From Nitrospinae bacterium CG11_big_fil_rev_8_21_14_0_20_45_15 (GTDB lineage: Bacteria > Nitrospinota > Nitrospinia > Nitrospinales > VA-1): a DNA stretch of 41,972 nucleotides. Shown here piece after piece: positions 13,522 to 41,972 of the stretch. The number at the start of each line of letters is the position of its first letter. Positions within the stretch are counted from its first letter, which is position 1. The position numbers and the translations under genes are program-made. The DNA lies in contig PCWG01000010.1 in assembly GCA_002787235.1 (NCBI GenBank), positions 156,708 to 198,679 of the forward strand, read 5' to 3'. Below the pieces are notes generated by a model that was given only the letters and a program-made list of their open reading frames with translations, did no database searches and had not been told where the DNA came from.

Positions 13522-14619
13522 TTATTTTTTCACCGTCAAGCTTTTCAAAACATCGCCTTCCCACTCACAAACCAGCGCAGATCGCCCTTTGTGCAATCCT
13601 TTTTGGTAAGCATAACCATATATCAGTGGAAGGGAAACGCTGGGCTCCACAAACGCCATCGCAAAATTGGCATTTTTATTCACTTTGCCCCAGGACTGCG
13701 CTTCTGCCAGAGTGCTTCCACTCAAACCGCCCCAATGTGGAACGTCGGTGGTTACCTGAAGCGCGTATTTGTGCCCGCCTGTGTTTTTTCCGAAAACAAA
13801 AGCCATCACCACAGAGTCATTGATATAATTTTTGGGGACGCCACCGGCTACGTAAAAAGCGGCCGTGCGTGAGGAATTGACCACAATTTGCGTCAATTCA
13901 TAATTGTCGCGGATGGAATCGATGGTGATCGGAGTCCGCCCTGCTTTGCGAGCGTTATTATAATGTTCGGTGAGACCAATGCCGATGCTGGAATCGTTGA
14001 TGGCCGGACAGAAAATTGGCACGCCCTGTTTTCGCGCGGTGACAAGAATGGAATCGTCATCGTCAATCGTTTCCGACATGAGGTGTAAAAACTCTCGGGT
14101 GGAATAACAGCGTGGCTCAAGAGTGTCTGCAAATTTTCCTACCAGCGTATCGTCCTCCGCAAACAACTCTTCATCCACATAGGTATCGTAAATGCGGTTG
14201 ATAAACAATTCCCTCAATTTGGTATCATCCGCAAGCGCACTGCCATAATAATGCCCGCCACCCAGTGCGGCATAATAATCCTGATACATCACGGCGCCGG
14301 TAGAAACGACGACATCCACCATCTTGTTATGAATCATATCGCGGATCACTTTGCGCAAGCCTGCCGCAATCAATGGACCTGCCAAACCGAGGATGATGGT
14401 GGGTCGCTCTTCATCGGTCAACATTTTTCCAAAAACACCCGCCGCCAGACCTATGTTGCGAGCTTGAATGGAAGTGGACTGAAAGCTTTCAACGAGATCG
14501 GCGACACTCTCAACTTTTTCAAAATCGACGGGAGCAATGCGGGTATTCAGCAATTCCTTTTTCAGATTTTTTTGTTCATCGTTCAAAGGATCTTCCATTA
14601 AATAATCTTTGTAAACCAT
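13522..14619 (-). CDS. Deoxyhypusine synthase-like protein
   Basis: NAD- and spermidine-type aminobutyl transferase fold, 365 residues. Family segments include LGLAGPLIAAGLRKVIRDM, VVVSTGAVMYQDYY, PIFCPAINDSSIG and VAGGVPKNYINDSVVMAF followed by EAQSWGKV. K263 in PKNY aligns with the lysine that forms the enzyme intermediate in eukaryotic DHS. Bacteria lack eIF5A, so relatives of this kind are thought to make homospermidine or an unknown conjugate; the substrate here is unknown. The ATG at 14619 is chosen because GGAG sits about 8 nt upstream. A cupin gene follows at 15 nt. Confidence 0.85.
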   Translation of the reverse strand: MVYKDYLMEDPLNDEQKNLKKELLNTRIAPVDFEKVESVADLVESFQSTSIQARNIGLAAGVFGKMLTDEERPTIILGLAGPLIAAGLRKVIRDMIHNKMVDVVVSTGAVMYQDYYAALGGGHYYGSALADDTKLRELFINRIYDTYVDEELFAEDDTLVGKFADTLEPRCYSTREFLHLMSETIDDDDSILVTARKQGVPIFCPAINDSSIGIGLTEHYNNARKAGRTPITIDSIRDNYELTQIVVNSSRTAAFYVAGGVPKNYINDSVVMAFVFGKNTGGHKYALQVTTDVPHWGGLSGSTLAEAQSWGKVNKNANFAMAFVEPSVSLPLIYGYAYQKGLHKGRSALVCEWEGDVLKSLTVKK

Positions 14620-14934
14620 AAGGGCAACTCCAGAAAAATCAATCAAAAGGAAATAGGAAAATGATCACAAGTTTTGCGACCCGCGCAAACTTGCTCCACC
14701 GTCGGTTGAAACGCAGGCATGACTGTTGAATTTGCAGAAAGACCGATGCGCTACGCCAAATCTTTATACTAAAGCTTGAGGGGGACTCAGGTCAAGCAAG
14801 ACCTGATCTCTACGGGAAAAAAGAATCACTACGGGAGGACGTGCTATCTTTTCTATATGAAAGAAATTCAACCGATAGCGGATATCATTTCATTCTACCG
14901 TATGAATGAGGAACCTCCTTCTGTCAGCAGAAAA
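14620..14934 (-). promoter_or_regulatory. Gene-free stretch: candidate promoter and leader hairpin of the DHS-like gene
   Basis: Minus strand: TTGACC (14790-14795) and TAGTAT (14766-14771) at 18-nt spacing form a plausible promoter. Its -35 lies inside the inverted repeat TCAGGTC/GACCTGA (14787-14793, 14800-14806). The leader then holds CAAGTTTTGCG (14668-14678) pairing with CGCAAACTTG (14684-14693) with one bulged base, ending 48 nt before the start codon. Plus-strand frames here look non-coding. Confidence 0.35.
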
Positions 14935-18707: not shown

Positions 18708-20510
18708 ATGAAAACGGCACTGATATTTCCTCCGCAATGGTACCCTAGCCAACCCTATCTGGCTTTGCCTACGTTGAAAGCCTACCTTGAAGGAAAAGGA
18801 TTTTCAGTCGATCAATTTGATTTCAATATTGAGAGTTACGACATCATCCTCAGCCGCGATTACCTCACTCATTGTATCGAGCAAATTCAGCGACGACTCA
18901 CCGCTCCCCCTATCACCGAAGAAGACCGCGAAGTACGACCGGTGTATCGTCAAATATTGGGGGATACAAACTACCTTGAATCGATTCTGTCTGAAGTGGA
19001 GTCTGCAAAAAATGTGTTACGAAACGAAGAGCTTTTCTTCCAGTTTGACCTCTACAAGGATGCCTACACGACCTTAAAAATTGCGATGCAGTTGGTCTCC
19101 TTCGCACATCACCCCAGTCGGCTCGATCTCGATTCGTTTTTCATGCAAGGCAACCCCGAAGAAAGTTTGCACGGTATCCTTTCTGCCACGCAGGACCGGC
19201 TGAGAAATCCATTCGTTCACCTTTTGGAAAAACAACTCCTGCCCAAAATTTCGTTTGAGGATTACGGGCTGTTGGGGATATCCATCATCCATGCGGGTCA
19301 AGTGATTCCAGCTCTGACACTGGCTCGACAAGTGAAACGAAATCACCCTCATTTGCACATCACCATTGGCGGTAGTATTTTTGCACGCCATCAAGACTTG
19401 CTGGAAGACAAACAGGTTTTGTTTGAAGAATTTTTTGACAGCATCCTTTTGTACGAAGGGGAACTTCCGCTGGAAAAACTCATTCAGCAATTGGAGGAAG
19501 GTAAAGACCCCAACGAAACACCCAATATGATTTACATGCGCGATGAGAAAATCATACGCACACCGAAAGCCAAAGCCCTCCCTTACGAGCTATTAAAACG
19601 TCCGAATTTTGATGGATTTCATCTCGAAAAATACCTGATGCCATTTCCTGTCCTGCCTTATATGGCCAGCCGGGGTTGTTATTGGGGGAAATGTACTTTC
19701 TGCACACACAGCTTCACCTACGACTCGCATTACCGCAAAGAAAACGAATCGCGCGTCGCGGAAGACCTCGACTATCTGGGCAAACGCTACAACACGCGAT
19801 ACTTCACCTTCTCCGATGAAGCCATTTCACCGAGTGCTTTCAGCCGGATGTCGAAAGCCATCCTGTCAAAAAAAGTGGATATGCGGGCCTTGGGGATGCT
19901 CAAGTTTGAATCGGGAGAAGTAGAATCTCCTGAGCTGTTTGATGAAATGTTTCGAGCCGGATTCCTCATGCTCTTCTTTGGATTGGAAAGTGCGAATGAT
20001 CGCATCCTCTCCATCATCGACAAAGGTTGTGACCAGAAAACCGAAGGCCGTGTTCTGAAACACAGTTCCGAAGCCGGGATATGGAATCATCTCTATCTGT
20101 TTTTCGGCTTCCCCACTGAAACTCGGGAAGAAGCCGAAGACACCATCGACTTCACTATCAAAAACGGTGAGACCGGCGCAGGACACATTCATTCCGTAGG
20201 ACAATCCATCTTCTCACTGGAAAAAGATTCTGCTATCTATCACAATCCCGGAAAATTTAAAATCGACCGAATCATCAAGTCGCCAGAAAGAGATATGGCC
20301 ATCGTCTTCGATTACGAAATCAATGAGGGCATGAACCGCGACGAAATTTTGGACGTCTACAAAAACTTCGATACGGTGATTGAAGATCATTTTGAATCGC
20401 GCACAGTCTGGAAATATTTATCACGCGAACATTTTCTGCTCTACCTTGACCGCTTCGGACGCGATGGGATATTGGAAATGTCCCGAAACTCCTCTGATGT
20501 AGTGAGTTAG
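18708..20510 (+). CDS. B12-binding-type radical SAM protein with CX4CX2C cluster motif
   Basis: A 600-residue cytoplasmic radical SAM enzyme. Residues 1-50 and ~190-270 form a split cobalamin-binding-like Rossmann domain (MKTALIFPPQWYPSQPYLAL; GLLGISIIHAGQVIPALTLA; ITIGGSIF), interrupted by a ~130-residue helical insert. No DXHXXG motif is visible, so B12 may be bound base-off or not at all. The radical SAM core has C324, C329 and C332 in RGCYWGKCTFC, which is CX4CX2C and not the usual CX3CX2C. SAM contacts such as FGLESANDRILSIIDKG follow. It is a single-gene unit behind a long structured leader. The reaction is unknown; methyl transfer or RiPP/lipid modification are only guesses. Confidence 0.85.
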   Translation: MKTALIFPPQWYPSQPYLALPTLKAYLEGKGFSVDQFDFNIESYDIILSRDYLTHCIEQIQRRLTAPPITEEDREVRPVYRQILGDTNYLESILSEVESAKNVLRNEELFFQFDLYKDAYTTLKIAMQLVSFAHHPSRLDLDSFFMQGNPEESLHGILSATQDRLRNPFVHLLEKQLLPKISFEDYGLLGISIIHAGQVIPALTLARQVKRNHPHLHITIGGSIFARHQDLLEDKQVLFEEFFDSILLYEGELPLEKLIQQLEEGKDPNETPNMIYMRDEKIIRTPKAKALPYELLKRPNFDGFHLEKYLMPFPVLPYMASRGCYWGKCTFCTHSFTYDSHYRKENESRVAEDLDYLGKRYNTRYFTFSDEAISPSAFSRMSKAILSKKVDMRALGMLKFESGEVESPELFDEMFRAGFLMLFFGLESANDRILSIIDKGCDQKTEGRVLKHSSEAGIWNHLYLFFGFPTETREEAEDTIDFTIKNGETGAGHIHSVGQSIFSLEKDSAIYHNPGKFKIDRIIKSPERDMAIVFDYEINEGMNRDEILDVYKNFDTVIEDHFESRTVWKYLSREHFLLYLDRFGRDGILEMSRNSSDVVS

Positions 20511-31439: not shown

Positions 31440-32849
31440 TCACGCTTTGCCTTTCCAGCGGCGTACGTCTTTCATGAATTTGTTGCGGTCCATTTCGCTG
31501 TCCCAGGGGAAAGCATCCATCAAGGGTTCGAAGGCGTAATTCGATTTGTCTTTCGGCGGTATCTCGAAACTGCCGTTTGCCACTCGATAAATATTATTGA
31601 AGGTTCGGTAATTTCCACACAGGGCAACATAATCCCACGACGTCTCTCCCTGAATCAAGGCATGCAATTCAGACGCTGAAATGCCTTCGTAGAGGCTGAT
31701 TTTCCCAAGCGCGCCGTTTTGAATGACGAAGGGCACTTGCTCGAAATCCACGCTCCATATTTCCGAACCGTCTTGCCCGAACACTTCCAATTGATAAGCG
31801 ATCTGCCAATGTTGCCAACCGGCCAGGGTATCGCTTTTTCTCCAGCGATCAGCCAGTTCATTTTCTATAAAGTTCCGAATGTTTGCCATTTCCTCTTCGT
31901 GACATTTGGGGTCTTTCGTCTGTGTCCGAATCGGTGGCACCTCTGCACCGGGCTTGAAAACAACTTTGTGGCTGTCGTCTTCTGCCACACGCACAAAAGG
32001 GGACGATTGCTTTTCAATCCGAATCTCATTCGCAGAAATATGCGCAACGTCGCCGGGAAAATAACATTCGCATTGAACATCAGGATAAAACGCTTTCAAA
32101 TCCTGGAGGTACTGCTCCTGTGTGGTGGGAAAGGAATAACGGTTGAGAAAGGTGAATTCATCGCGATAACGAAATGCGGCGGAACCGGGGACCACAAACC
32201 GGGGCTCCAGTGCGCGGATGATATTCAAAAAGGAACAGTACTCATCCATCGGCAATTCCATCGGCTTGTTGTACGAAAAATTTCCTTCCAGCAGGGGAAG
32301 AAAACGGGCGTGTGCAAAATCGAGATGCCCGTACAATTCACGAATGTGCTGGATGATCTCGGGACTGACGATGGTATCGACTTGATTCCACACCGTTACT
32401 TCGCCATCGTGAACGATGAGTCCATGCTCGGGAAAATAATCCTGAGCGGTGCTGGACTGATTGAGCGACGGGGTGGGGATCAGCGTCACATCGCGAATTT
32501 TGATCGGTTCAAAATCGGCAACGATGCGGACGTTTTCAAATTCCAATTCTTTTATGACTTCGATGAGAATGTCATCGTTGGGAACGAGTATCGTCGCATC
32601 GGGCTTGAGAATGTTTTTTCTATTACGCGCAATATAAGCAAGGGTGCGAACGTCGAAATGATCTTGATGCCGATGGGAAATATTGAGGACATCGACGGGT
32701 GGAATTTTATCTATTTCCAACTTTATCTTCGGACAGAGAACGTTGATTTCCTCCCAAAGATAATCAAACCATACGGGATCGGACAAAATAACGGTTTCGG
32801 CAGATTGGGTAACAAGACAGGCGTGCCCGACCAATGTGGTTTTTATCAC
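31440..32849 (-). CDS. Metallo-beta-lactamase-fold hydrolase with long C-terminal domain
   Basis: A 469-residue cytoplasmic protein. Residues 1-~270 are an MBL-fold domain of the UlaG/NAPE-PLD-like type: TTLVGHACLV at the start, zinc motif H59-R-H61-Q-D63-H64, and later His/Asp ligands around FAHARFLPLLEGNF and VVPGSAAFRYRDE. The remaining ~200 residues are unassigned; they contain IWSVDFEQVPFVIQNG and an aromatic C-terminus, and resemble the C-terminal part of CMP-Neu5Ac-hydroxylase-like MBL proteins only loosely. Start is GTG at 32849, with AAGGAA 6 nt upstream. It converges on the SpeE-like gene with an 18-nt gap. Confidence 0.8.
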   Translation of the reverse strand: MIKTTLVGHACLVTQSAETVILSDPVWFDYLWEEINVLCPKIKLEIDKIPPVDVLNISHRHQDHFDVRTLAYIARNRKNILKPDATILVPNDDILIEVIKELEFENVRIVADFEPIKIRDVTLIPTPSLNQSSTAQDYFPEHGLIVHDGEVTVWNQVDTIVSPEIIQHIRELYGHLDFAHARFLPLLEGNFSYNKPMELPMDEYCSFLNIIRALEPRFVVPGSAAFRYRDEFTFLNRYSFPTTQEQYLQDLKAFYPDVQCECYFPGDVAHISANEIRIEKQSSPFVRVAEDDSHKVVFKPGAEVPPIRTQTKDPKCHEEEMANIRNFIENELADRWRKSDTLAGWQHWQIAYQLEVFGQDGSEIWSVDFEQVPFVIQNGALGKISLYEGISASELHALIQGETSWDYVALCGNYRTFNNIYRVANGSFEIPPKDKSNYAFEPLMDAFPWDSEMDRNKFMKDVRRWKGKA

Positions 32850-32915: not shown

Positions 32916-33100
32916 GGCAACCGGGCCTCGCCCGATAGAAATTGAACTATCCAGAGATCGTTGCTATAAAATTCAAAGTTTCTAAATGGACCCCGCTTCC
33001 GGCGGGTGCGTGCTAAAATACAATTAGATTTGCGATTGCGCACAACCCGCTAGCTAGATAGATAGGCAAGGTAAAACCAGTTCACTCCCGCTTGGCGGGC
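32916..33100. repeat. Cluster of GC-rich inverted repeats before the MBL gene
   Basis: CGGGC/GCCCG over an 11-nt loop near 32916-32936; GATAG/CTATC next to it; CCCGC (32992-32996) with GCGGG (33002-33006); the latter, extended as GCGGGTGCG, can also pair with CGCAC-AA-CCCGC near 33041-33052. CCCGC/GCGGG recurs at the methyltransferase stop (33087-33100). The composition is unlike the AT-rich spacers elsewhere. No T-run follows any stem. Confidence 0.45.
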
Positions 33101-33915
33101 GGGGATGGCTCGTCAGGCAGACGGGCTAAAAGGTTGAAGGTGTTTTCAGATTTGAGCAAGCGGTTGGCGATCCAGGCGACGACTCCATACCGGCGCGAGC
33201 AATACTTTTCGAGATGAAGGATTTCCATCCCTTGCGAACGCAAAACTTCTGTAACCAAATTGGGATCGATCCCGCCAAATTGGCGTTGATAATCGGCCAA
33301 TTCGTATTTGTCTTCAAACAATGCGATGCCGCGCCATTTCATTTCCATCCGATAAGCGACCTCGTGCACCCAGGTCAGCAAACGATGCAGTTGATAACGA
33401 AACGGCGATTTTATTTTTTGTTTTAAAGGTTCAAAAAAAATCAGAAGCACTCCACCAGGTTTTAATTTATCGCACATCTTCTTTAGATTCGTCTCGGGAT
33501 CGTAGAGATGGTGCAGGAGTGCCGAGGCGACGATGGCAGACCACTGATCTTCGTTTTCTTCCAAAAAACTTTCGACATCGGAGCAGATCAACCGCGCACG
33601 CTCCTGATCCTTATCTTCGATTTTACTTTTCAAAACATCGAGCATGGCTTCGGATAAATCCACTCCTGTCATTGCGTAACCACGCTCAAGAAATTTCAGG
33701 TAGAGATAGCCCGTTCCACAACCCAGATCCAGAATCTGCCCGTCGTCTGATCCGATTTCCTTGCAGACCTTATGCACGGCGCGCCGCAACACACGTTTCT
33801 GAAAAAAATTGGTTTGCTCGGGATGGCGTTCGAGGTAGAGCGGGCCTTCCAATCGGTGAACGACTCTGTTTTCCTCAAGAATTTTTTCGCGAAGCTCGGG
33901 ATTGAGATCATTCAT
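33082..33915 (-). CDS. Class I SAM-dependent methyltransferase
   Basis: A 277-residue methyltransferase. Motif I is ILDLGCGTGYLYLKFLERGY, motif II TGVDLSEAML, motif IV AIVASALLHHLYDPE and the post-motif LKPGGVLLIFFEPL. The N-terminal RLEGPLYLERHPEQTN and the C-terminal amphipathic region (RYQLHRLLTWVHEVAYRM) suggest a lipid- or glycan-associated substrate, but no family gives the acceptor. It is the last gene of the 33-40 kb cluster, 24 nt after the SPASM-type radical SAM gene. Confidence 0.85.
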   Translation of the reverse strand: MNDLNPELREKILEENRVVHRLEGPLYLERHPEQTNFFQKRVLRRAVHKVCKEIGSDDGQILDLGCGTGYLYLKFLERGYAMTGVDLSEAMLDVLKSKIEDKDQERARLICSDVESFLEENEDQWSAIVASALLHHLYDPETNLKKMCDKLKPGGVLLIFFEPLKQKIKSPFRYQLHRLLTWVHEVAYRMEMKWRGIALFEDKYELADYQRQFGGIDPNLVTEVLRSQGMEILHLEKYCSRRYGVVAWIANRLLKSENTFNLLARLPDEPSPPAKRE

Positions 33916-33939
33916 GATAGATACTCTGCATTAGGAAAT

Positions 33940-34782
33940 TCAGACTTGCTGGAAGAAGAACCGTTTGGGGGTTTTGGAAGTCTCGCATTCGTTGCAGTTG
34001 ACACAAACTTCCGGGAATTCTTTTGCCTCATGCGCCTGACGCAAATCTTCGATGGCTCCCCTCTGCCACAAGTCCGTGATTTTATCATCCCAGGCGTTGC
34101 CCAAAACCAGTGTGGCGTTGTAATCGACGCAACAGGGAATCACCCTGCCATCCCACAGCGCGACCAGTTTGCCGTAGTCTTTGCCAAAGGGTTCCGGGCA
34201 GGCAGACTCGCGCGGACTCTGAATCAATTTGGGTTGCAGGCGCACATGATCGACAATGTTTTCCCAGTAGGCAATGTATTCTTCAACGTCTTCCTGACTT
34301 TCCTCTTCGACCGTGAACACCACGCCAAGGCTGAGTGCCGGGCGCAATCGATCTCTCGCTTCTTTGACTTTCAGAATATTTTTTTCGATTTCCGCAAGTT
34401 CCACACCACGCACGCGCTTGTATGTTTCGGGTGAGCCGTCGATGGAAAATCGCAGGATCGTCAACGGACCTCTCACAATCCGGTCGATCGTTGCATCGTC
34501 GAGCAGTGTTCCATTCGTGTTCATGACGATGTTGGGGATGCCGGACTGCGATGCGTAGTCGAACATTCGGAACAAATCTTTGTTCAAAAGCGGCTCGCCC
34601 CAATTGTGCATGCACAGGTGTTCGAGGTCGGGACAATCGTCGATGATTTTTCTGAAGAGGTCGAATTCCATGAACCCGCCCTTGCGTGTCATGCCCTCGG
34701 TCACAAAGCAAAACGAGCATTTCAAATTGCAAACATTCGTCGGCTCGATGATGAGTGAGGTCAGCTTTTTTACAGGTATCAT
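33940..34782 (-). CDS. Radical SAM protein with SPASM-like C-terminus (280 aa)
   Basis: Cluster cysteines C18, C22 and C25 in NVCNLKCSFC (CX3CX2C), then LCMHNWGEPLLN (the GGEP-like SAM motif, here WGEP), FSIDGSPETYKRVRG and a C-terminal cysteine-rich segment: IPCCVDYN, then CVNCNEC. This fits an auxiliary-cluster SPASM/twitch domain. SPASM enzymes modify peptides, tRNA-like or small-molecule substrates. Its ATG overlaps the GT2 stop as ATGA, so it is coupled to a glycosyltransferase, which favours a glycan or carrier-lipid substrate. The precise reaction is unknown. Confidence 0.87.
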   Translation of the reverse strand: MIPVKKLTSLIIEPTNVCNLKCSFCFVTEGMTRKGGFMEFDLFRKIIDDCPDLEHLCMHNWGEPLLNKDLFRMFDYASQSGIPNIVMNTNGTLLDDATIDRIVRGPLTILRFSIDGSPETYKRVRGVELAEIEKNILKVKEARDRLRPALSLGVVFTVEEESQEDVEEYIAYWENIVDHVRLQPKLIQSPRESACPEPFGKDYGKLVALWDGRVIPCCVDYNATLVLGNAWDDKITDLWQRGAIEDLRQAHEAKEFPEVCVNCNECETSKTPKRFFFQQV

Positions 34783-35762
34783 TCGATCACCTTATCGACG
34801 ATGTAATCGGGCCGATCCTGCACCCGTAAATGGACCCGCCCCAGATATTCGCCCAACAATCCCATGGACAGCAATTGAATGCCCGCGAGGAAAGCGAATG
34901 CGGCAGAAAGCAAAACCATGCCGTCTACCAAAATGCCACGCACAACGCGTTGGAATATCAAAAAAACCATCAAACCAAATCCGGTGCCGGCACCGAGCAA
35001 TCCCATGTAGGTGACCAGGCGCAGTGGGAAATTGGAGTATCCCGTGACGATGTCCCAGGTCAATCGAATCAACTGCGACAGGCCATATTTCGTGACACCT
35101 TTTTCACGCGCAGAGTGTTCAACTTCCACCTCCGCAGTGGGAACGCCCATCCAACTCATGAGCACCGCCATGAATTGCGATTTGTCTTTGCATTGATCGA
35201 TCTTGTCCACCACGCTCGGACGCAAAGCGCGGAACGAGCTGAGGTTCAGTTTGCAGGAAGGACCGAGCATCCTTTGCGCGATGCATTGCAACAATCGCGA
35301 ACCTGCCACGCGCGTCCAGGTGTCTTTGCGTTTTCTTGGAATCGTTACGACAAGGTCGATCGTGTCCGTCATCGCATTCAGCAATTTGGGAATTTCTTCA
35401 GGCGGATTCTGCAAATCGGAATCGAGTTGCACAATGATCTCGCCTCGACAATGACGAAAGCCTGCCAGCACGGCGGCCTGTTGACCAAAATTGCGGGTGA
35501 AGCGCAGGATACGGATGGAGGGATCGCCTGCGCGTAAAACTTTCAATCGCTCGAAAGAACCGTCGTCGCTTCCATCATCAATGAAAAGTATTTCGCATTT
35601 TTTACCAAGACCCGCGACCACCTTGCTCAGACGTGCATAAAGTTCGTCCAGTATCTGAACCTCGTTATAGACAGGAATCACAACGGATATATCGACAGAC
35701 CCTTTCAGCGATGAGTCATTGCCTGTCAATGATTCCGTGTCGGATTGTGATCGTTCTCCCAT
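34779..35762 (-). CDS. GT2 glycosyltransferase, DPM1/GtrB type, with two C-terminal membrane helices
   Basis: Transfers a sugar from an NDP-sugar to a polyprenyl phosphate or related lipid. The catalytic domain (about 25-245) shows VVIPVYNE, FIDDGSDDGSFE, LDSDLQNPPEEIP (DXD-like) and the RKRKDTW region. Two hydrophobic helices follow ([34 protein letters not shown]), as in ArnC/GtrB. The ATG at 35762 is preferred; a TTG at 35777 would overlap the upstream stop as TTGA. Neither has a strong ribosome binding site. It lies in the middle of the surface-glycan cluster. Confidence 0.9.
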   Translation of the reverse strand: MGERSQSDTESLTGNDSSLKGSVDISVVIPVYNEVQILDELYARLSKVVAGLGKKCEILFIDDGSDDGSFERLKVLRAGDPSIRILRFTRNFGQQAAVLAGFRHCRGEIIVQLDSDLQNPPEEIPKLLNAMTDTIDLVVTIPRKRKDTWTRVAGSRLLQCIAQRMLGPSCKLNLSSFRALRPSVVDKIDQCKDKSQFMAVLMSWMGVPTAEVEVEHSAREKGVTKYGLSQLIRLTWDIVTGYSNFPLRLVTYMGLLGAGTGFGLMVFLIFQRVVRGILVDGMVLLSAAFAFLAGIQLLSMGLLGEYLGRVHLRVQDRPDYIVDKVIE

Positions 35763-35773
35763 CGGATTCCGTA

Positions 35774-37207
35774 TCAATTCGACGACGAAGTCGGTGCGTT
35801 GGTGGGGGCAATGGCGTTACGCCACAACAGGGCCAGCGGAGTTTTGAGGGCCGAACGAACCAGCCACTTGAACTCCATCGTTTGCAAAACCTTCCGCGCC
35901 CGTCGGGCACTCAAATAAAATCTGCGATGCCCTTCTCTTTTGATTTCGAGCAATTCTCTCGCGCTGACCTTGCACGCTGTTTTATCAATATTGAAAGTCG
36001 TGTACTGGGAAAATTCCTGACTGTTTTTTTCATTTTCAGAAATAACCGTTTGCCGGATTTCTGTTCCGGGATTGGGAATCACCAACGAAAAGTTTACCGT
36101 GGTGAATCCCGAACGACAGGCCAGATCGAGGGTCTCGTACATTTCTTCACGCGTTTCGGTTGGAAAACCGAGCATGAAGAATCCATGCACGCTGATTTTT
36201 GAGTTCGTCAGGCGCTTGACCACACCTTCAACGAGGCCAATATCCAAATCTTTTTTGATCATCTCCTGAATACGTTGCGAACCCGCCTCGACGCCCAGTG
36301 CCATGCGGTAAACCCCGGCGCGCTTCATGATGTCGATCAATTCATCATCGAAGAAATCGACACGCAATCCGTTGGGAAAGCTGATATGGATATCGAGTCC
36401 GCGATCGATGATCATTTGCAGGATCAGTTTCGCGCGCGGCATATTCAAATTGAACATGTCGTCCACGATATGAAATTCTTTCACGCCGTAGCGTTGCATG
36501 AGAAATTCAATCTCATCTAATACCACCTCGGGCGAACGATAATGCATGGTCTTGGAAAAAATATCGTGACAGTAGGTGCAAAGGAAGGGGCATCCTCTCG
36601 AAGTCACAATGGGCAAGAAGTGACGATCACGGTAGGCCGGGAAAAAATCCATTGAGCTTCGGAAATCAAAATACCGCTCGACCTCTATCAAATCGTATTC
36701 CTGCTGAAGCCAGTCAAGATCGGTGATAACAGGACGGTCCATCGTTTGAACACATTCGCCATTTTTCCGATAGGCTATGCCTTTGACCCCGCTCAAATCA
36801 GCAGAAGCTTCTAACGCGCTGATCAATTCGACGATGGTGCGGTCGCCTTCGCCACGCACGACATAGTCCACATTGGGATCGCTCAAAATATATTGTGGTT
36901 CGTGCGAACAATGCGGCCCGCCAAAAATAACAGGGACATTGGGTTTTAATTTTTTCACTTCCGCCGCGCCGATGAATCCGCATTCAGCCTCAATGGTCAT
37001 GATGCCGATGCCAACCACCTCGGGATCAAACGCCGCCATATTTTGCTTCAATTCAGCGTCTGGCGTATTGGAAATTCGCAGATCGAGTATTTTTACTTCA
37101 TGTCCTGCACGTTTGAGGACAGAACCAATGGCAACCAGTCCCAGCGGGAAAGATCGAGCCATGGATGCGTTGCCTCCTGCGGCGGGTCTCAGTAATAATA
37201 TTCGCAT
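35774..37207 (-). CDS. B12-binding-domain radical SAM protein
   Basis: A 477-residue enzyme. Residues 1-~140 form a cobalamin-binding Rossmann domain (MRILLLRPAAGGNASMARSF, VGIGIMTIE, VIFGGPHCSHEP, YVVRGEGDRTIVEL). The core has C206, C210 and C213 in RGCPFLCTYC, followed by VDDMFNLNMPRAKLI, ALGVEAGSQRI and FFMLGFPTETREEM. Relatives methylate or rearrange unreactive carbons in lipids, hopanoids, antibiotics and sugars. AAGGAAA lies about 9 nt before the ATG. It sits between a SPASM radical SAM gene and the GT2 gene. Confidence 0.92.
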   Translation of the reverse strand: MRILLLRPAAGGNASMARSFPLGLVAIGSVLKRAGHEVKILDLRISNTPDAELKQNMAAFDPEVVGIGIMTIEAECGFIGAAEVKKLKPNVPVIFGGPHCSHEPQYILSDPNVDYVVRGEGDRTIVELISALEASADLSGVKGIAYRKNGECVQTMDRPVITDLDWLQQEYDLIEVERYFDFRSSMDFFPAYRDRHFLPIVTSRGCPFLCTYCHDIFSKTMHYRSPEVVLDEIEFLMQRYGVKEFHIVDDMFNLNMPRAKLILQMIIDRGLDIHISFPNGLRVDFFDDELIDIMKRAGVYRMALGVEAGSQRIQEMIKKDLDIGLVEGVVKRLTNSKISVHGFFMLGFPTETREEMYETLDLACRSGFTTVNFSLVIPNPGTEIRQTVISENEKNSQEFSQYTTFNIDKTACKVSARELLEIKREGHRRFYLSARRARKVLQTMEFKWLVRSALKTPLALLWRNAIAPTNAPTSSSN

Positions 37208-37265
37208 AATATATATTTTCCTTTATATCGCATGTGCGATGTTTGAGGTAAATTGTACCACAATC

Positions 37266-38390
37266 TCAGCTTGCATCGGTTCCGACATATTCGGACTGAC
37301 AACAGCCGAGGCATCCGGGAAATATCTTTTCCTGAATGATTTTTGCTCTAAAATTTTTGGCCCTTTCAGCGTTCCAGAAAAAAGCGCGACTCCCCGCATT
37401 GCCATCGCTGTCAAAATTTCCAAGCGGATAATGCGGGCAACTGTGCACATCACCGTAGGCGGAAAACGCCACTTTGCTCCAGGCAATGTTGCAACGGTAA
37501 TCTTTATAGGAACTCTGGTTCGAGTAATAACGCACGATTTCGTCGGTGCTGATATAGTTCGGTGAAAATCGCAATTGCGATTTGTAACTTTTGCTTTTTT
37601 CGACCAGCAAATCCAATTGTTCCTTCAACACAATCGGATCAATGGGGTTTACAGGACGCGGTGGAACGGCGAGCCGCTCTTCCTGATTGTAACCCTTGCG
37701 ATGCCCGTATTCGGCGGTGTTTTCCAAGACAAAATTGCAGACTTCGATGCCCAGTTTCTCACTGTAATCGTACAAGGAAACCAGATCGAGCACGTTGTCT
37801 TTACCGATCACACAAGTCAGATGAATTTGCGGGTACTTGGCATTCAATTGACGACGCTTTTGAATCAATGCTTCCAGACCTTTCAGGGTCTTGCGATGCG
37901 AGCCGGGTATCTGGGTGATCTTGTCGTGCAAGGCTTCGCCCCCCTCCAGCGAAACGCCCAGAAAAAACAATCCCGAACCCCAAATCGAGCGCAATCGTTT
38001 GGCAAGCAATCGGTCGATCACCGCGTCGGTCAATAACGTACCGTTGCTGATGATATGAACTTTATTACGCGAGCAGGCATAATCGAAGATCTCCTGAAAA
38101 TCACTTTTCATGATCGCCTCACCGCCGGTGAAGGTGATCGCTGAAAAACGACTCAGCGAGTCTATCGCGCGGCAGACTTCTTCCGCGTTCCGCTCTTCCT
38201 TGTATTTTCGTTGTGTCTCGGTTTCTTCAATGATCTCAAGATAATGGCACATTTCGCAACGCAGGTTGCACCTGTACGTCACTTCAAAATAGGCATGGAT
38301 CGGCGGCAAGGCGTATTTCGGCGCAATGACTTGTGGCAGTAGGGACACGAGACGCGGTAGCGTCCTCTGCAAATATTTAAAGGAAAGCAT
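37266..38390 (-). CDS. Radical SAM protein with SPASM-like C-terminus (374 aa)
   Basis: Cluster cysteines C41, C45 and C48 in YRCNLRCEMC; TFTGGEAIM supplies the GGE SAM motif. The C-terminal part holds CNIAWSKVAFSAYGDVHSCPHYPLG and CLGCC, typical of SPASM auxiliary Fe-S ligands. Between them, a ~60-residue insert (EYGHRKGYNQEERLAVPPR) is not conserved in families I know. An N-terminal ~30 residues (LQRTLPRLVSLLPQV) look amphipathic and may touch the membrane. It lies 5 nt after the WbqC-like gene, in the same operon. Substrate unknown. Confidence 0.87.
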   Translation of the reverse strand: MLSFKYLQRTLPRLVSLLPQVIAPKYALPPIHAYFEVTYRCNLRCEMCHYLEIIEETETQRKYKEERNAEEVCRAIDSLSRFSAITFTGGEAIMKSDFQEIFDYACSRNKVHIISNGTLLTDAVIDRLLAKRLRSIWGSGLFFLGVSLEGGEALHDKITQIPGSHRKTLKGLEALIQKRRQLNAKYPQIHLTCVIGKDNVLDLVSLYDYSEKLGIEVCNFVLENTAEYGHRKGYNQEERLAVPPRPVNPIDPIVLKEQLDLLVEKSKSYKSQLRFSPNYISTDEIVRYYSNQSSYKDYRCNIAWSKVAFSAYGDVHSCPHYPLGNFDSDGNAGSRAFFWNAERAKNFRAKIIQEKIFPGCLGCCQSEYVGTDAS

Positions 38391-38395
38391 AGGTT

Positions 38396-39082
38396 TTAAT
38401 CCGGTCCACGCAATATTTTCAGACTGTTTTCCCCACAGTTGAACAACAAATCAACCGCTGACAGATAAGGAACAAAACCTGGAAAACATTGACCATACTC
38501 AGGGTGCTGATAATGCTGGAATTCCAGCCCCACCGCACGTTGCTCGAACGCCTTGGGATCGAGATAGTTTTCCGCCGCATCGCCACTCAAATAATTATCC
38601 GCTTGCAAGGCCTCACAAATTCCAAGAATGCGGTCGCCCTTGGAACCGCCAACATTTAGATCTGAAGAAAGAAAGGTTGGCGTCTCTATTTTGAATGATT
38701 CTTTCAGAAACTCGATGCCCGTATAACAAAGATCGGTGAGAAAACGGTAGTCTCTATTATATATCGACTCAAGCGCAGGAAAATAAAGATCAAAGTACGG
38801 AGCGCGTGAATAATTGGAGCGTATGGCTTCGCAATGTTTTCTCTTCCATGAAGATGCCGGGTCGATTTCGGTCTCCTGCAAGGATTGCTGATAGCGGTTT
38901 TTTTGCAAAACCGGCACCGTCAACCAGGCCGATCCCTGAGGCGTCCGAATCCTGTTACGGTTTCTCCAGTCGCGGCGAGTGAATTGAACGTCGTCTAAAA
39001 ATACAAATTTATCGACACGCGCCATCTGATCGAAATAACCGATCCAGGGCAGATAGGAAGGTTGCAGGATCGCAATTTTCAT
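38396..39082 (-). CDS. WbqC-like family protein
   Basis: A 228-residue protein of the WbqC family, found in O-antigen and other surface-glycan clusters. The N-terminal signature is MKIAILQPSYLPWIGYFDQM, followed by FVFLDDVQFTRRDWRNRNRI, LTVPV and a C-terminal GFVPYLSAVDLLFNCG. The family has been linked to acyl or aminoacyl decoration of sugars, but its chemistry is not well established. The ATG at 39082 is conserved; the TTG 11 codons upstream is not needed. The epimerase gene ends 39 nt upstream. Confidence 0.88.
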   Translation of the reverse strand: MKIAILQPSYLPWIGYFDQMARVDKFVFLDDVQFTRRDWRNRNRIRTPQGSAWLTVPVLQKNRYQQSLQETEIDPASSWKRKHCEAIRSNYSRAPYFDLYFPALESIYNRDYRFLTDLCYTGIEFLKESFKIETPTFLSSDLNVGGSKGDRILGICEALQADNYLSGDAAENYLDPKAFEQRAVGLEFQHYQHPEYGQCFPGFVPYLSAVDLLFNCGENSLKILRGPD

Positions 39083-39121
39083 ATTGCGGGAAACCTTGAT
39101 TTCATGGGCAAACAATGCCGT

Positions 39122-40150
39122 TCAGTTTTTCCAGCGCAAGTCGTCATCCAGACGGCCTCGTTTCATCAAATCCTTGATACAACCGATGCGGAAATACTTC
39201 CCCGACGCCATACCTTCGAGAGACAGTTTTTTTTCAAGATAGGCCTTGTGCAATTCCTCGATGCCCTTCTGTAAATTCCATTGTGGTTTGAAACTAGGAA
39301 GAACTTTCTGAATTTTTGAGCAATCGACCCGATATGTACGACCGCCTTCGCCCGGAACAAACACAATCTCAATCTCTGGATAGGGAAGCGATTCTTTGAC
39401 CTTCTCGGCGATTTCCCGGACCTGGAAATTTTCTTCGGTGATACCGACGTTGATCGCCTGATTGTGAATGGTTTGCGCCGGTGCCTGCAAGGCACAGGTA
39501 AACGCCCGACACAAATCCTCAACATGAACCATGGGACGCCAGTGCGCGCCATCACTGAAAACGGTGATCTTTTTTTTCAGCAAGGCATCCGCCGTCATGA
39601 TATTCAACACCAGGTCGAGTCTCAGTGCTGGCGACAACCCGTAGACCGTTGCATTCCGCATGAAAACCGGATGAAAGGAATCATCCGCAAGTTTTGCGAT
39701 TTCATCTTCTGCCCGGGCCTTGGCCTTGGCGTATGCGGTGATGGGATTCAGTTTTCCCGTTTCAATGATCGCTTGCGAATCATCGGAAACACCGTACAAA
39801 CTGCATGAAGATGAAAAAATGAAACGCTCGACCCCCGCATTTTTTGCTTTCCGGGCCAGTTCCCAGGTTGCCATGCCGTTGATATCATGCGTGAGAGCCG
39901 GGTTCATTTCGCCCAGAAAATCGGTGGACAAGGCGGCCAGATGGATCACCGCCTCAACCCCTTCCAAATCCTTTTCTTCCACATCGCGGATGTCTTTATA
40001 CAACTGTCTGGCAGGTGGAAAACTATCTTCGTAAAAAAGATTTTCCTTATAAAAACCCGCATCCACCCCGAGCACATCGAATCCCACTTTGCCAAGATAA
40101 CGCGTCATGATTCGACCGATGTAACCCAGATTTCCTGTGACAAGTATCAT
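39122..40150 (-). CDS. NAD-dependent epimerase/dehydratase (extended SDR)
   Basis: A 342-residue NDP-sugar enzyme. The NAD loop is VTGNLGYIG; SSSCSLYG gives the catalytic Ser, and AYAKAKARAEDEIA the Y-x-x-x-K pair. RPMVHVEDLCRAF is the sugar-nucleotide-binding part. The exact reaction (4-epimerase, 4,6-dehydratase or reductase) is not fixed by these motifs. ATG at 40150. It is the first gene of the seven-gene cluster that runs to 33082, and no promoter stands out in the 215 nt before it. Confidence 0.88.
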   Translation of the reverse strand: MILVTGNLGYIGRIMTRYLGKVGFDVLGVDAGFYKENLFYEDSFPPARQLYKDIRDVEEKDLEGVEAVIHLAALSTDFLGEMNPALTHDINGMATWELARKAKNAGVERFIFSSSCSLYGVSDDSQAIIETGKLNPITAYAKAKARAEDEIAKLADDSFHPVFMRNATVYGLSPALRLDLVLNIMTADALLKKKITVFSDGAHWRPMVHVEDLCRAFTCALQAPAQTIHNQAINVGITEENFQVREIAEKVKESLPYPEIEIVFVPGEGGRTYRVDCSKIQKVLPSFKPQWNLQKGIEELHKAYLEKKLSLEGMASGKYFRIGCIKDLMKRGRLDDDLRWKN

Positions 40151-40365: not shown

Positions 40366-41031
40366 CTAAAGCATCTTGATCAATTGCTCAACTGCTCTCT
40401 CAATACCGTCCGCAACTTCTGCTATATTTTGCCCCAGCATATACGCCGGACCCGTGACAATTTTGTTTTCCACATCCACTACAAAATTTTGAACTCCGCA
40501 GTCTTGATGTTTGCTTCCCATGCTTTCGATTTTTGAACCGATCCCTTTGTCATTGCCTATCGTGAGCGTGGGATGCACATCGGTAGAATCGAAAACCTTG
40601 GCAACCATCGCCGGAGCAATACAAACAGCCCCCTGTGGTTTGTTTTTTTCACGCAGTTGTTTGACCAGCCGCGAAACTTCAGGATGGACCTGGCAATTTT
40701 CACCCGTCACCGCAAAATCACTTAAATTCTTTGCGGCTCCAAAACCACCGGGGAAAAACAGACCGTCGATATCATCCGCCGAAATTTCCGCAATGTCTTT
40801 AATATCACCGCGCGCGATGCGCGCCGACTCGATGAGAACGTTGCGTTGTTCGCCTTCCATCGGCTCACCTGTCAAGTGATTGACAACATGCATCTGAGAC
40901 ATGTTCGGGGCCATGCAAACAGCCGTCGCGCCACCTCTTTCGATCGCCAACAGGGAAATCACCGCTTCATGAATTTCGGTACCGTCGTACACACCACAAC
41001 CAGATAAAACCACTCCAATTTTCTTTTTCAT
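40366..41031 (-). CDS. elbB: Isoprenoid biosynthesis glyoxalase-like protein ElbB
   Basis: A 221-residue DJ-1/PfpI-fold protein, named from its effect on lycopene yield in E. coli. The signatures are VVLSGCGVYDGTEIHEAV, FPGGFGAAKNLSDFA, the nucleophile-elbow-like GAVCIAPAM and CGVQNFVVD. It may act as a glyoxalase or protein deglycase; its true substrate is not known. GAGGTGA lies 4 nt before the ATG, the strongest ribosome binding site in this part. It is monocistronic. Confidence 0.92.
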   Translation of the reverse strand: MKKKIGVVLSGCGVYDGTEIHEAVISLLAIERGGATAVCMAPNMSQMHVVNHLTGEPMEGEQRNVLIESARIARGDIKDIAEISADDIDGLFFPGGFGAAKNLSDFAVTGENCQVHPEVSRLVKQLREKNKPQGAVCIAPAMVAKVFDSTDVHPTLTIGNDKGIGSKIESMGSKHQDCGVQNFVVDVENKIVTGPAYMLGQNIAEVADGIERAVEQLIKML

Positions 41032-41442: not shown

Positions 41443-41972
41443 ATGACAACAAAACAAAAATCAGGAATATTTGGATTTTTTAGTAACAGCAATCATGCGG
41501 TTGAAGAATTGCAGGCTAAAATAGATGCGATTGGAAAATCTCAAGGCGTCATCGAGTTCAATTTAGATGGCACCGTTATCACGGCCAATGAAAATTTTCT
41601 CAATGTTTTGGGCTACTCTCTAAATGAGGTGGTTGGGGCACACCATCGACAATTTGTTGAACCTGCTTATGCCAAAAGCAACGAGTATCGACAATTCTGG
41701 GAAAAACTCAATCGCGGTGAGTTTGATGCCGGCGAGTATAAGCGCATCGGCAAGGGGGGAAAGGAAGTTTATATTCAGGCTTCCTACAACCCTATTCTTG
41801 ATCCTGAGGGAAAACCTTACAAAGTTGTTAAATTTGCTACAGACATAACAGAACAGAAATTAAGAAACGCGGATTCTCAAGGCAAGATAGATGCGATTGG
41901 AAAATCTCAAGGCGTCATCGAGTTCAATTTAGATGGCACCGTTATCACGGCCAATGAAAATTTTCTCAATGT
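41443..41972 (+). CDS. Tandem-PAS sensory protein, probably a chemoreceptor (5' part)
   Basis: Open at the window end. The 176 visible residues start [21 protein letters not shown] first PAS domain (about residues 27-142) follows: [38 protein letters not shown] and a C-terminal [15 protein letters not shown] second copy begins at residue 149 and is identical as far as it goes. This layout is typical of Aer-like soluble methyl-accepting proteins with PAS domains that bind heme or FAD, though the signalling domain is not visible. AGGAAA stands about 8 nt before the ATG. The repeat unit is 122 codons. Confidence 0.8.
41521..41972 (+). repeat. Tandem direct repeat of 366 bp encoding identical PAS modules
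   Basis: Bases 41521-41606 recur without a single change at 41887-41972, where the window ends. The offset is 366 bp, a whole number of codons. Identity at silent positions shows that the copies are young or kept equal by gene conversion. Confidence 0.9.

Follow-up and report, generated by a model that had tools for sequence, protein, structure and literature searches.

Gene content of the locus

The stretch of DNA analysed here (the window; 41,972 nt of contig PCWG01000010.1) comes from Nitrospinae bacterium CG11_big_fil_rev_8_21_14_0_20_45_15, and its named close relatives are Nitrospinaceae/Nitrospinae metagenome-assembled genomes. At 33082-40150 it carries a cassette of seven co-directional open reading frames (ORFs) on the minus strand, which encode, from 5' to 3', a short-chain dehydrogenase/reductase (SDR)/epimerase, a WbqC-family protein, a first radical S-adenosylmethionine (SAM) enzyme (rSAM1), a B12-binding radical SAM enzyme, a family 2 glycosyltransferase (GT2), a second radical SAM enzyme (rSAM2), and a methyltransferase (MT). 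A sequence-only reading of the window had proposed these seven genes and their domains as a candidate glycan or glycolipid pathway; all seven ORFs lie where that reading had placed them and match the expected Pfam domains, and none of the seven proteins reaches an NCBIfam equivalog cut-off. The features, together with the flanking elbB gene, are as follows:

39122..40150, minus strand: extended SDR (epimerase/dehydratase family), first gene (PF01370, 140 bits)
38396..39082 (corrected start), minus strand: WbqC-family protein (PF08889, 275 bits)
37266..38390, minus strand: rSAM1, radical SAM, core gene, single copy (CxxxCxxC and invariant C-terminal Cys)
35774..37207, minus strand: B12-binding radical SAM, BchE/HpnJ-like class, optional member (PF02310 and PF04055)
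34779..35762 (corrected start), minus strand: GT2, ArnC/GtrB type, probable polyprenyl-phosphate glycosyltransferase (PF00535)
33940..34782, minus strand: rSAM2, radical SAM/SPASM, 280 aa, BtrN-like, core gene (profile match to BtrN)
33082..33915, minus strand: class I SAM-dependent MT, last gene (PF13649/PF08241)
40366..41031, minus strand: elbB, conserved 5' boundary gene, outside the pathway (NF008747, 325 bits)

The GT2 and rSAM2 genes are joined by an ATGA overlap (34782-34779), as had been noticed before, and the remaining intergenic gaps within the cassette measure about 5 to 58 nt. Judging from positions conserved in the relative G002, WbqC probably starts at ATG 39082 rather than at the upstream TTG 39115, and GT2 at ATG 35762 rather than at an upstream TTG; these corrected starts leave gaps of about 39 nt before WbqC and about 11 nt before GT2. 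No Rfam family was found in the window, promoter predictions did not exceed those in shuffled sequences, and the terminator scan returned 16 candidates vs 11.2 +/- 3.6 in shuffles. Radical SAM genes as a class are common in the 3.37-Mb host genome (58 matches); what is informative is the conserved arrangement, and not the presence of such genes.

Conservation of the cassette across Nitrospinota

Gene order was compared in regions fetched around orthologues from a set of 77 Nitrospinota genomes (designated by G-numbers). The block SDR-WbqC-rSAM1-[B12]-GT2-rSAM2-MT was syntenic in about 40 of them, rSAM1 orthologues (53-90% identity) occurred in about 42 and rSAM2 orthologues in about 43. Both radical SAM enzymes were present in 40 genomes and neither, at the orthologue level, in 32, leaving five discordant cases: (i) two genomes with rSAM1 only (G035 and G047), whose contigs stop within the B12 gene or shortly beyond it, and (ii) three with rSAM2 only, of which G013 and G050 are truncated at the B12 gene and G043 is a real exception. 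The order elbB-SDR-WbqC-rSAM1-[B12]-GT2-rSAM2-MT recurred throughout the fetched regions, with GT2 adjacent to rSAM2 in 36 regions (median gap -2.5 nt), rSAM2 to MT in 34 (-1 nt), and WbqC to rSAM1 in 32 (10 nt).

After the block come, in many relatives, a GGDEF-like gene (identified by eye), a 450-aa leucine-rich-repeat (LRR)-type gene and smc. The elbB gene is kept also in genomes without the cassette, where the distance from elbB to the LRR-type gene shrinks to 20 nt (G011), 22 nt (G003), 337 nt (G009) or 880 nt (G015), so that the block, where it is missing, is missing in full. G009 and G015, which are 98% and 97% complete, lack the block, which the majority of their genus carries. Pairwise protein distances of WbqC, rSAM1, GT2, rSAM2, MT and the RmlB-like SDR found in most relatives (see below) correlated with those of SMC (r = 0.91-0.95), the genes thus following the species tree, and dN/dS of the cassette genes against G002 was 0.03-0.12, as under purifying selection. 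Synteny, empty sites, SMC-correlated distances and low dN/dS together mark the cassette as an old, vertically inherited and selected unit of six or seven genes that is gained or lost whole.

Next to the block in the window (31440-32849, minus strand) lies a gene for a metallo-beta-lactamase-fold protein (Lactamase_B_3), which is 93% identical and in the same place in G002; in the remaining relatives that were looked at it was not seen next to the block, and it may be a genus-specific addition.

Outside the phylum, a scan with a single query sequence returned three Nitrospinota loci, fewer than are known, and hence had low sensitivity. Viral contigs searched with an rSAM2 profile gave no match. 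None of the plasmid-borne relatives reached 60% identity (those listed stayed under 30%), and where gene order was compared none was shared.

Variable parts and two modules

Two claims of the sequence-only reading did not carry over to the phylum. The B12-radical SAM enzyme, which it had counted as a cluster member, is optional and not part of the core: its gene is missing from the block in four genera (g4, g5, g7 and g8), lies elsewhere in the genome in G012 and G016, and is present in G004 (locus L036, 6228-9131) as two tandem copies between rSAM1 and GT2, 72% and 63% identical to the enzyme of the window. Nor is the window's "epimerase" the general first gene, as the window-type SDR fills this slot only in the window's genus and in G004, and elsewhere the slot is usually held by an RmlB-like SDR about 27% identical to it. 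The best PDB relatives of the latter are dTDP-glucose 4,6-dehydratases (E = 1e-88), and it scores 326-334 bits against TIGR01181, below the cut-off of 365.

The block comes apart in deeper families. In G038, SDR-WbqC-rSAM1 and B12-GT2-rSAM2-MT are found on different contigs, and in G041 the second part lies apart from rSAM1; the cassette thus consists of two modules, and GT2, rSAM2 and MT invariably form the heart of the second. On contig C51 of G041 (L101:15-4967), the RmlB-like SDR and rSAM1 genes adjoin an SDR, a GT2 and two more genes for B12-radical SAM enzymes; this second set may represent a paralogous pathway.

The split modules stand in a context of glycan export. In G038 the genes before the second module encode a PMT_2 glycosyltransferase of the GT-C class, three SDRs for nucleotide sugars, a Polysacc_synt_C cupin and a methyltransferase, and the module faces a fusion of a Wzx-type flippase (Polysacc_synt) with GT9. 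The second module of G041 lies downstream of a group-1 glycosyltransferase and of a Wzm/Wzt exporter, made up of an ABC2 permease (ABC2_membrane) and a Wzt_C ABC protein. Of the B12 orthologues located apart from the block, the one in G043 is adjacent to a PMT_2 protein and the one in G012 to a large, GT2-domain-containing membrane protein. In the distant genome G076, an rSAM1-like gene overlaps the gene of a protein with nine transmembrane (TM) helices and no Pfam family, and within 15 kb of it are genes for a DegT aminotransferase, a GT2 resembling ArnC and another radical SAM/SPASM protein. The absence of an exporter or ligase from the window, reported earlier, was borne out, and these neighbours provide, in relatives, the exporter and ligase functions that are missing there, which supports a carrier-linked glycan as the product.

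Evidence from the individual enzymes

The GT2 matches PF00535 at 106 bits, and its closest NCBIfam models are ArnC (NF007986; 239 bits) and PgfS (192 bits); with the ArnC score below the equivalog cut-off of 529 bits, it is of the same type and not ArnC itself. Two C-terminal TM helices (residues 257-275 and 282-300 in the numbering of the longer ORF) make it the only membrane protein of the seven, none of the other six having such helices. It is a probable polyprenyl-phosphate glycosyltransferase.

The best solved relative of rSAM2 is BtrN (profile E = 3.4e-19), which aligns in two stretches, the radical SAM core and the C-terminal cluster domain. The CxxxCxxC motif is formed by C18, C22 and C25, and C195, C217, C218, C260, C263 and C266 are invariant in 19 sequences. 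This likeness suggests an alcohol dehydrogenation on a sugar. The earlier assignment of both enzymes to the SPASM class is clear for rSAM2 from its Pfam match; in the rSAM1 of the window the domain scores 19 bits, short of the 21.5-bit Pfam cut-off, and it is detectable in all 17 aligned orthologues. Besides its CxxxCxxC motif, rSAM1 has invariant C300, C318, C360, C363 and C364, and its structural model (pLDDT 78) matched SkfB, DesII, SuiB and BlsE, of which DesII and BlsE are sugar or nucleoside enzymes.

The B12-radical SAM enzyme scores 194 bits against BchE (cut-off 481) and 159 bits against HpnJ (cut-off 578), below the threshold in both cases. For WbqC, a PDB sequence search found no relative, and an AF2 model (pLDDT 82) gave weak fold matches only (best E 0.04-0.07), many of them to HIGH-motif nucleotidylyl or aminoacyl enzymes, a weak likeness to the HIGH superfamily that we keep as a lead only.

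PADLOC matches (viperin-like to the radical SAM core, and mads methyltransferase) look superfamily-level only, and a reading as a defence system was rejected.

A candidate pathway for a carrier-linked sugar

On balance, we consider it probable that the cassette is one functional unit making an unusual carrier-linked sugar. Somewhat short of an even chance is the fuller version of this view: that many Nitrospinota lineages have inherited, as part of their core, an undescribed pathway for a polyprenyl-linked sugar, which radical SAM enzymes (a BtrN-like dehydrogenase and an optional, B12-dependent enzyme among them) remodel on or just before its carrier to yield a new surface sugar. In the pathway that we infer, including its sugar and substrate, the order of its reactions and its acceptor, the SDR would prepare a nucleoside diphosphate (NDP)-sugar (4-keto/6-deoxy or epimerised), which the ArnC-type GT2 would load onto polyprenyl phosphate at the inner membrane face. 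rSAM2 would oxidise a ring hydroxyl, as BtrN does on an aminocyclitol, and rSAM1 would act on the sugar in another radical step, either ahead of loading or following it. Where present, the B12-radical SAM enzyme may add a C-methyl group or rearrange the ring, the methyltransferase would cap the product, and WbqC would also act on the sugar. The finished lipid-linked sugar would then be flipped and passed to a glycan or lipid acceptor by a flippase/GT-C or ABC-exporter system, encoded elsewhere in most genomes.

The carrier-linked glycan or glycolipid pathway suggested by the sequence-only reading, with its putative chemistry, sugar and acceptor, is supported by the ArnC-type GT2 with two TM helices and by the export, flippase and GT-C genes next to split modules. 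Several observations weigh on the other side. The locus in the window contains no flippase, exporter or polymerase, and neither there nor in most relatives is the cassette linked to a flippase, an exporter or a GT-C; GT-C genes of PF13231, present in 76 of the 77 genomes, do not track the cassette, and none occurs in the cassette-bearing G040. The product of the SDR is uncertain, because the RmlB-like SDR has SSEVYG or TSEVYG in place of the classical RmlB motif TDEVYG. The rSAM1 model, for its part, also resembles the RiPP (ribosomally synthesized and post-translationally modified peptide) maturases SkfB and SuiB, and yields no specific assignment.

Alternative explanations

Four other explanations were weighed. 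Tailoring of hopanoids or other membrane lipids, with the GT2 glycosylating a hopanoid-type lipid (HpnI-like) and the B12 enzyme rearranging or methylating it (HpnJ/HpnR-like), would fit the scores of the B12 enzyme against HpnJ and BchE and the squalene-hopene cyclase matches in the host genome and in 66 of the 77 genomes. We regard it as unlikely because hopene cyclase is equally present in cassette-less genera, and so is not co-patterned, and because the B12 enzyme is dispensable while GT2-rSAM2-MT remain; the GT2, moreover, is closest to polyprenyl-phosphate transferase models. Hardly different in probability, if anything a shade lower, is a secreted or intracellular small molecule (an aminocyclitol, nucleoside or deoxysugar product) for which the GT2 would be a mere tailoring step. 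The resemblance of rSAM2 to BtrN, an enzyme of butirosin synthesis, and of the rSAM1 fold to DesII and BlsE speaks for such a product, but the second module never lacks a membrane-anchored GT2 of the ArnC type, the location is core-genomic and vertically inherited, and genes for polysaccharide export accompany the split modules.

Peptides are a frequent substrate of SPASM radical SAM enzymes, and this, together with an rSAM1 model whose best match by E-value is SkfB and which also fits SuiB well, raises the question of RiPP maturation. This appears distinctly improbable, since small ORFs in the intergenic gaps, compared across genomes, included none conserved beyond a few genomes; no RiPP equivalog model reached its cut-off either, and the SDR and ArnC-type GT2 would be left unexplained. 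Chance clustering of unrelated genes, to which the abundance of radical SAM genes in the host lends some initial appeal, can practically be dismissed. Scattered genes, or radical SAM genes keeping different partners in relatives, had been named in advance as the signs of an accidental cluster; what we found is an order conserved across families, joint absence at empty sites and co-inheritance, and the view of the genes as one pathway is strongly supported.

Relationship to known systems

The carrier-linked sugar pathway proposed here shares with ArnC/GtrB-type pathways, such as the L-Ara4N modification of lipid A, the GT2 domain with two C-terminal TM helices and, presumably, an SDR-made NDP-sugar donor and finishing by flipping and GT-C transfer. 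It differs in that the cassette has no ArnT-like transferase, aminotransferase or formyltransferase and has three radical SAM enzymes instead. BtrN, the radical SAM dehydrogenase acting on the butirosin aminocyclitol, resembles rSAM2 in length (about 270-280 aa) and in its alignable radical SAM core and short C-terminal cluster domain; the homology is distant only, and BtrN belongs to an antibiotic cluster whereas rSAM2 has a membrane-glycan context. With the hopanoid enzymes HpnI/HpnJ the cassette has in common a glycosyltransferase and a BchE/HpnJ-class B12-radical SAM protein, but its B12 enzyme is optional, its GT2 is of the ArnC type, and its distribution shows no tie to hopanoid synthesis. 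On plasmid pBHWA1 of Brachyspira hyodysenteriae (L143), a glycan locus likewise includes radical SAM enzymes, with several radical SAM/SPASM genes lying among rfbBADC, epimerases and glycosyltransferases. The matching plasmid proteins are 20-28% identical to rSAM1 and rSAM2, one pair being distantly related to rSAM2; the locus is larger, plasmid-borne, from another phylum, and has no gene order in common with the cassette.

Other features of the window

Three further ORFs of the window lie outside the cassette. At 13522-14646 (minus strand) is one that resembles, by eye, deoxyhypusine synthase-type proteins, which are unusual in bacteria. A 600-aa radical SAM protein is encoded at 18708-20510 (plus strand; match G000:C39:176375-176860), and a PAS-like protein at 41443-41970 (plus strand) runs off the window and contains a near-identical internal repeat of 29 residues, present twice.

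Significance

A literature search, in which subscription papers were mostly outside reach, turned up no paper in which WbqC and radical SAM enzymes share a pathway, and none that brings together radical SAM/SPASM enzymes, undecaprenyl phosphate and a glycosyltransferase. The parts belong to known families; their combination and phylum-wide conservation appear to be undescribed. WbqC, a family for which we found no assigned function, gains a fixed set of partners. Small, genetically clean and either wholly present or wholly absent, the block allows glycans to be compared directly between G009 or G015 and their genus-mates. Radical SAM chemistry has known roles in the making of antibiotics, cofactors, RiPPs and hopanoids. 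If our interpretation is correct, a vertically inherited cassette of these abundant marine bacteria would add to them a carrier-linked sugar of the cell envelope, and would predict a sugar that is yet to be identified.

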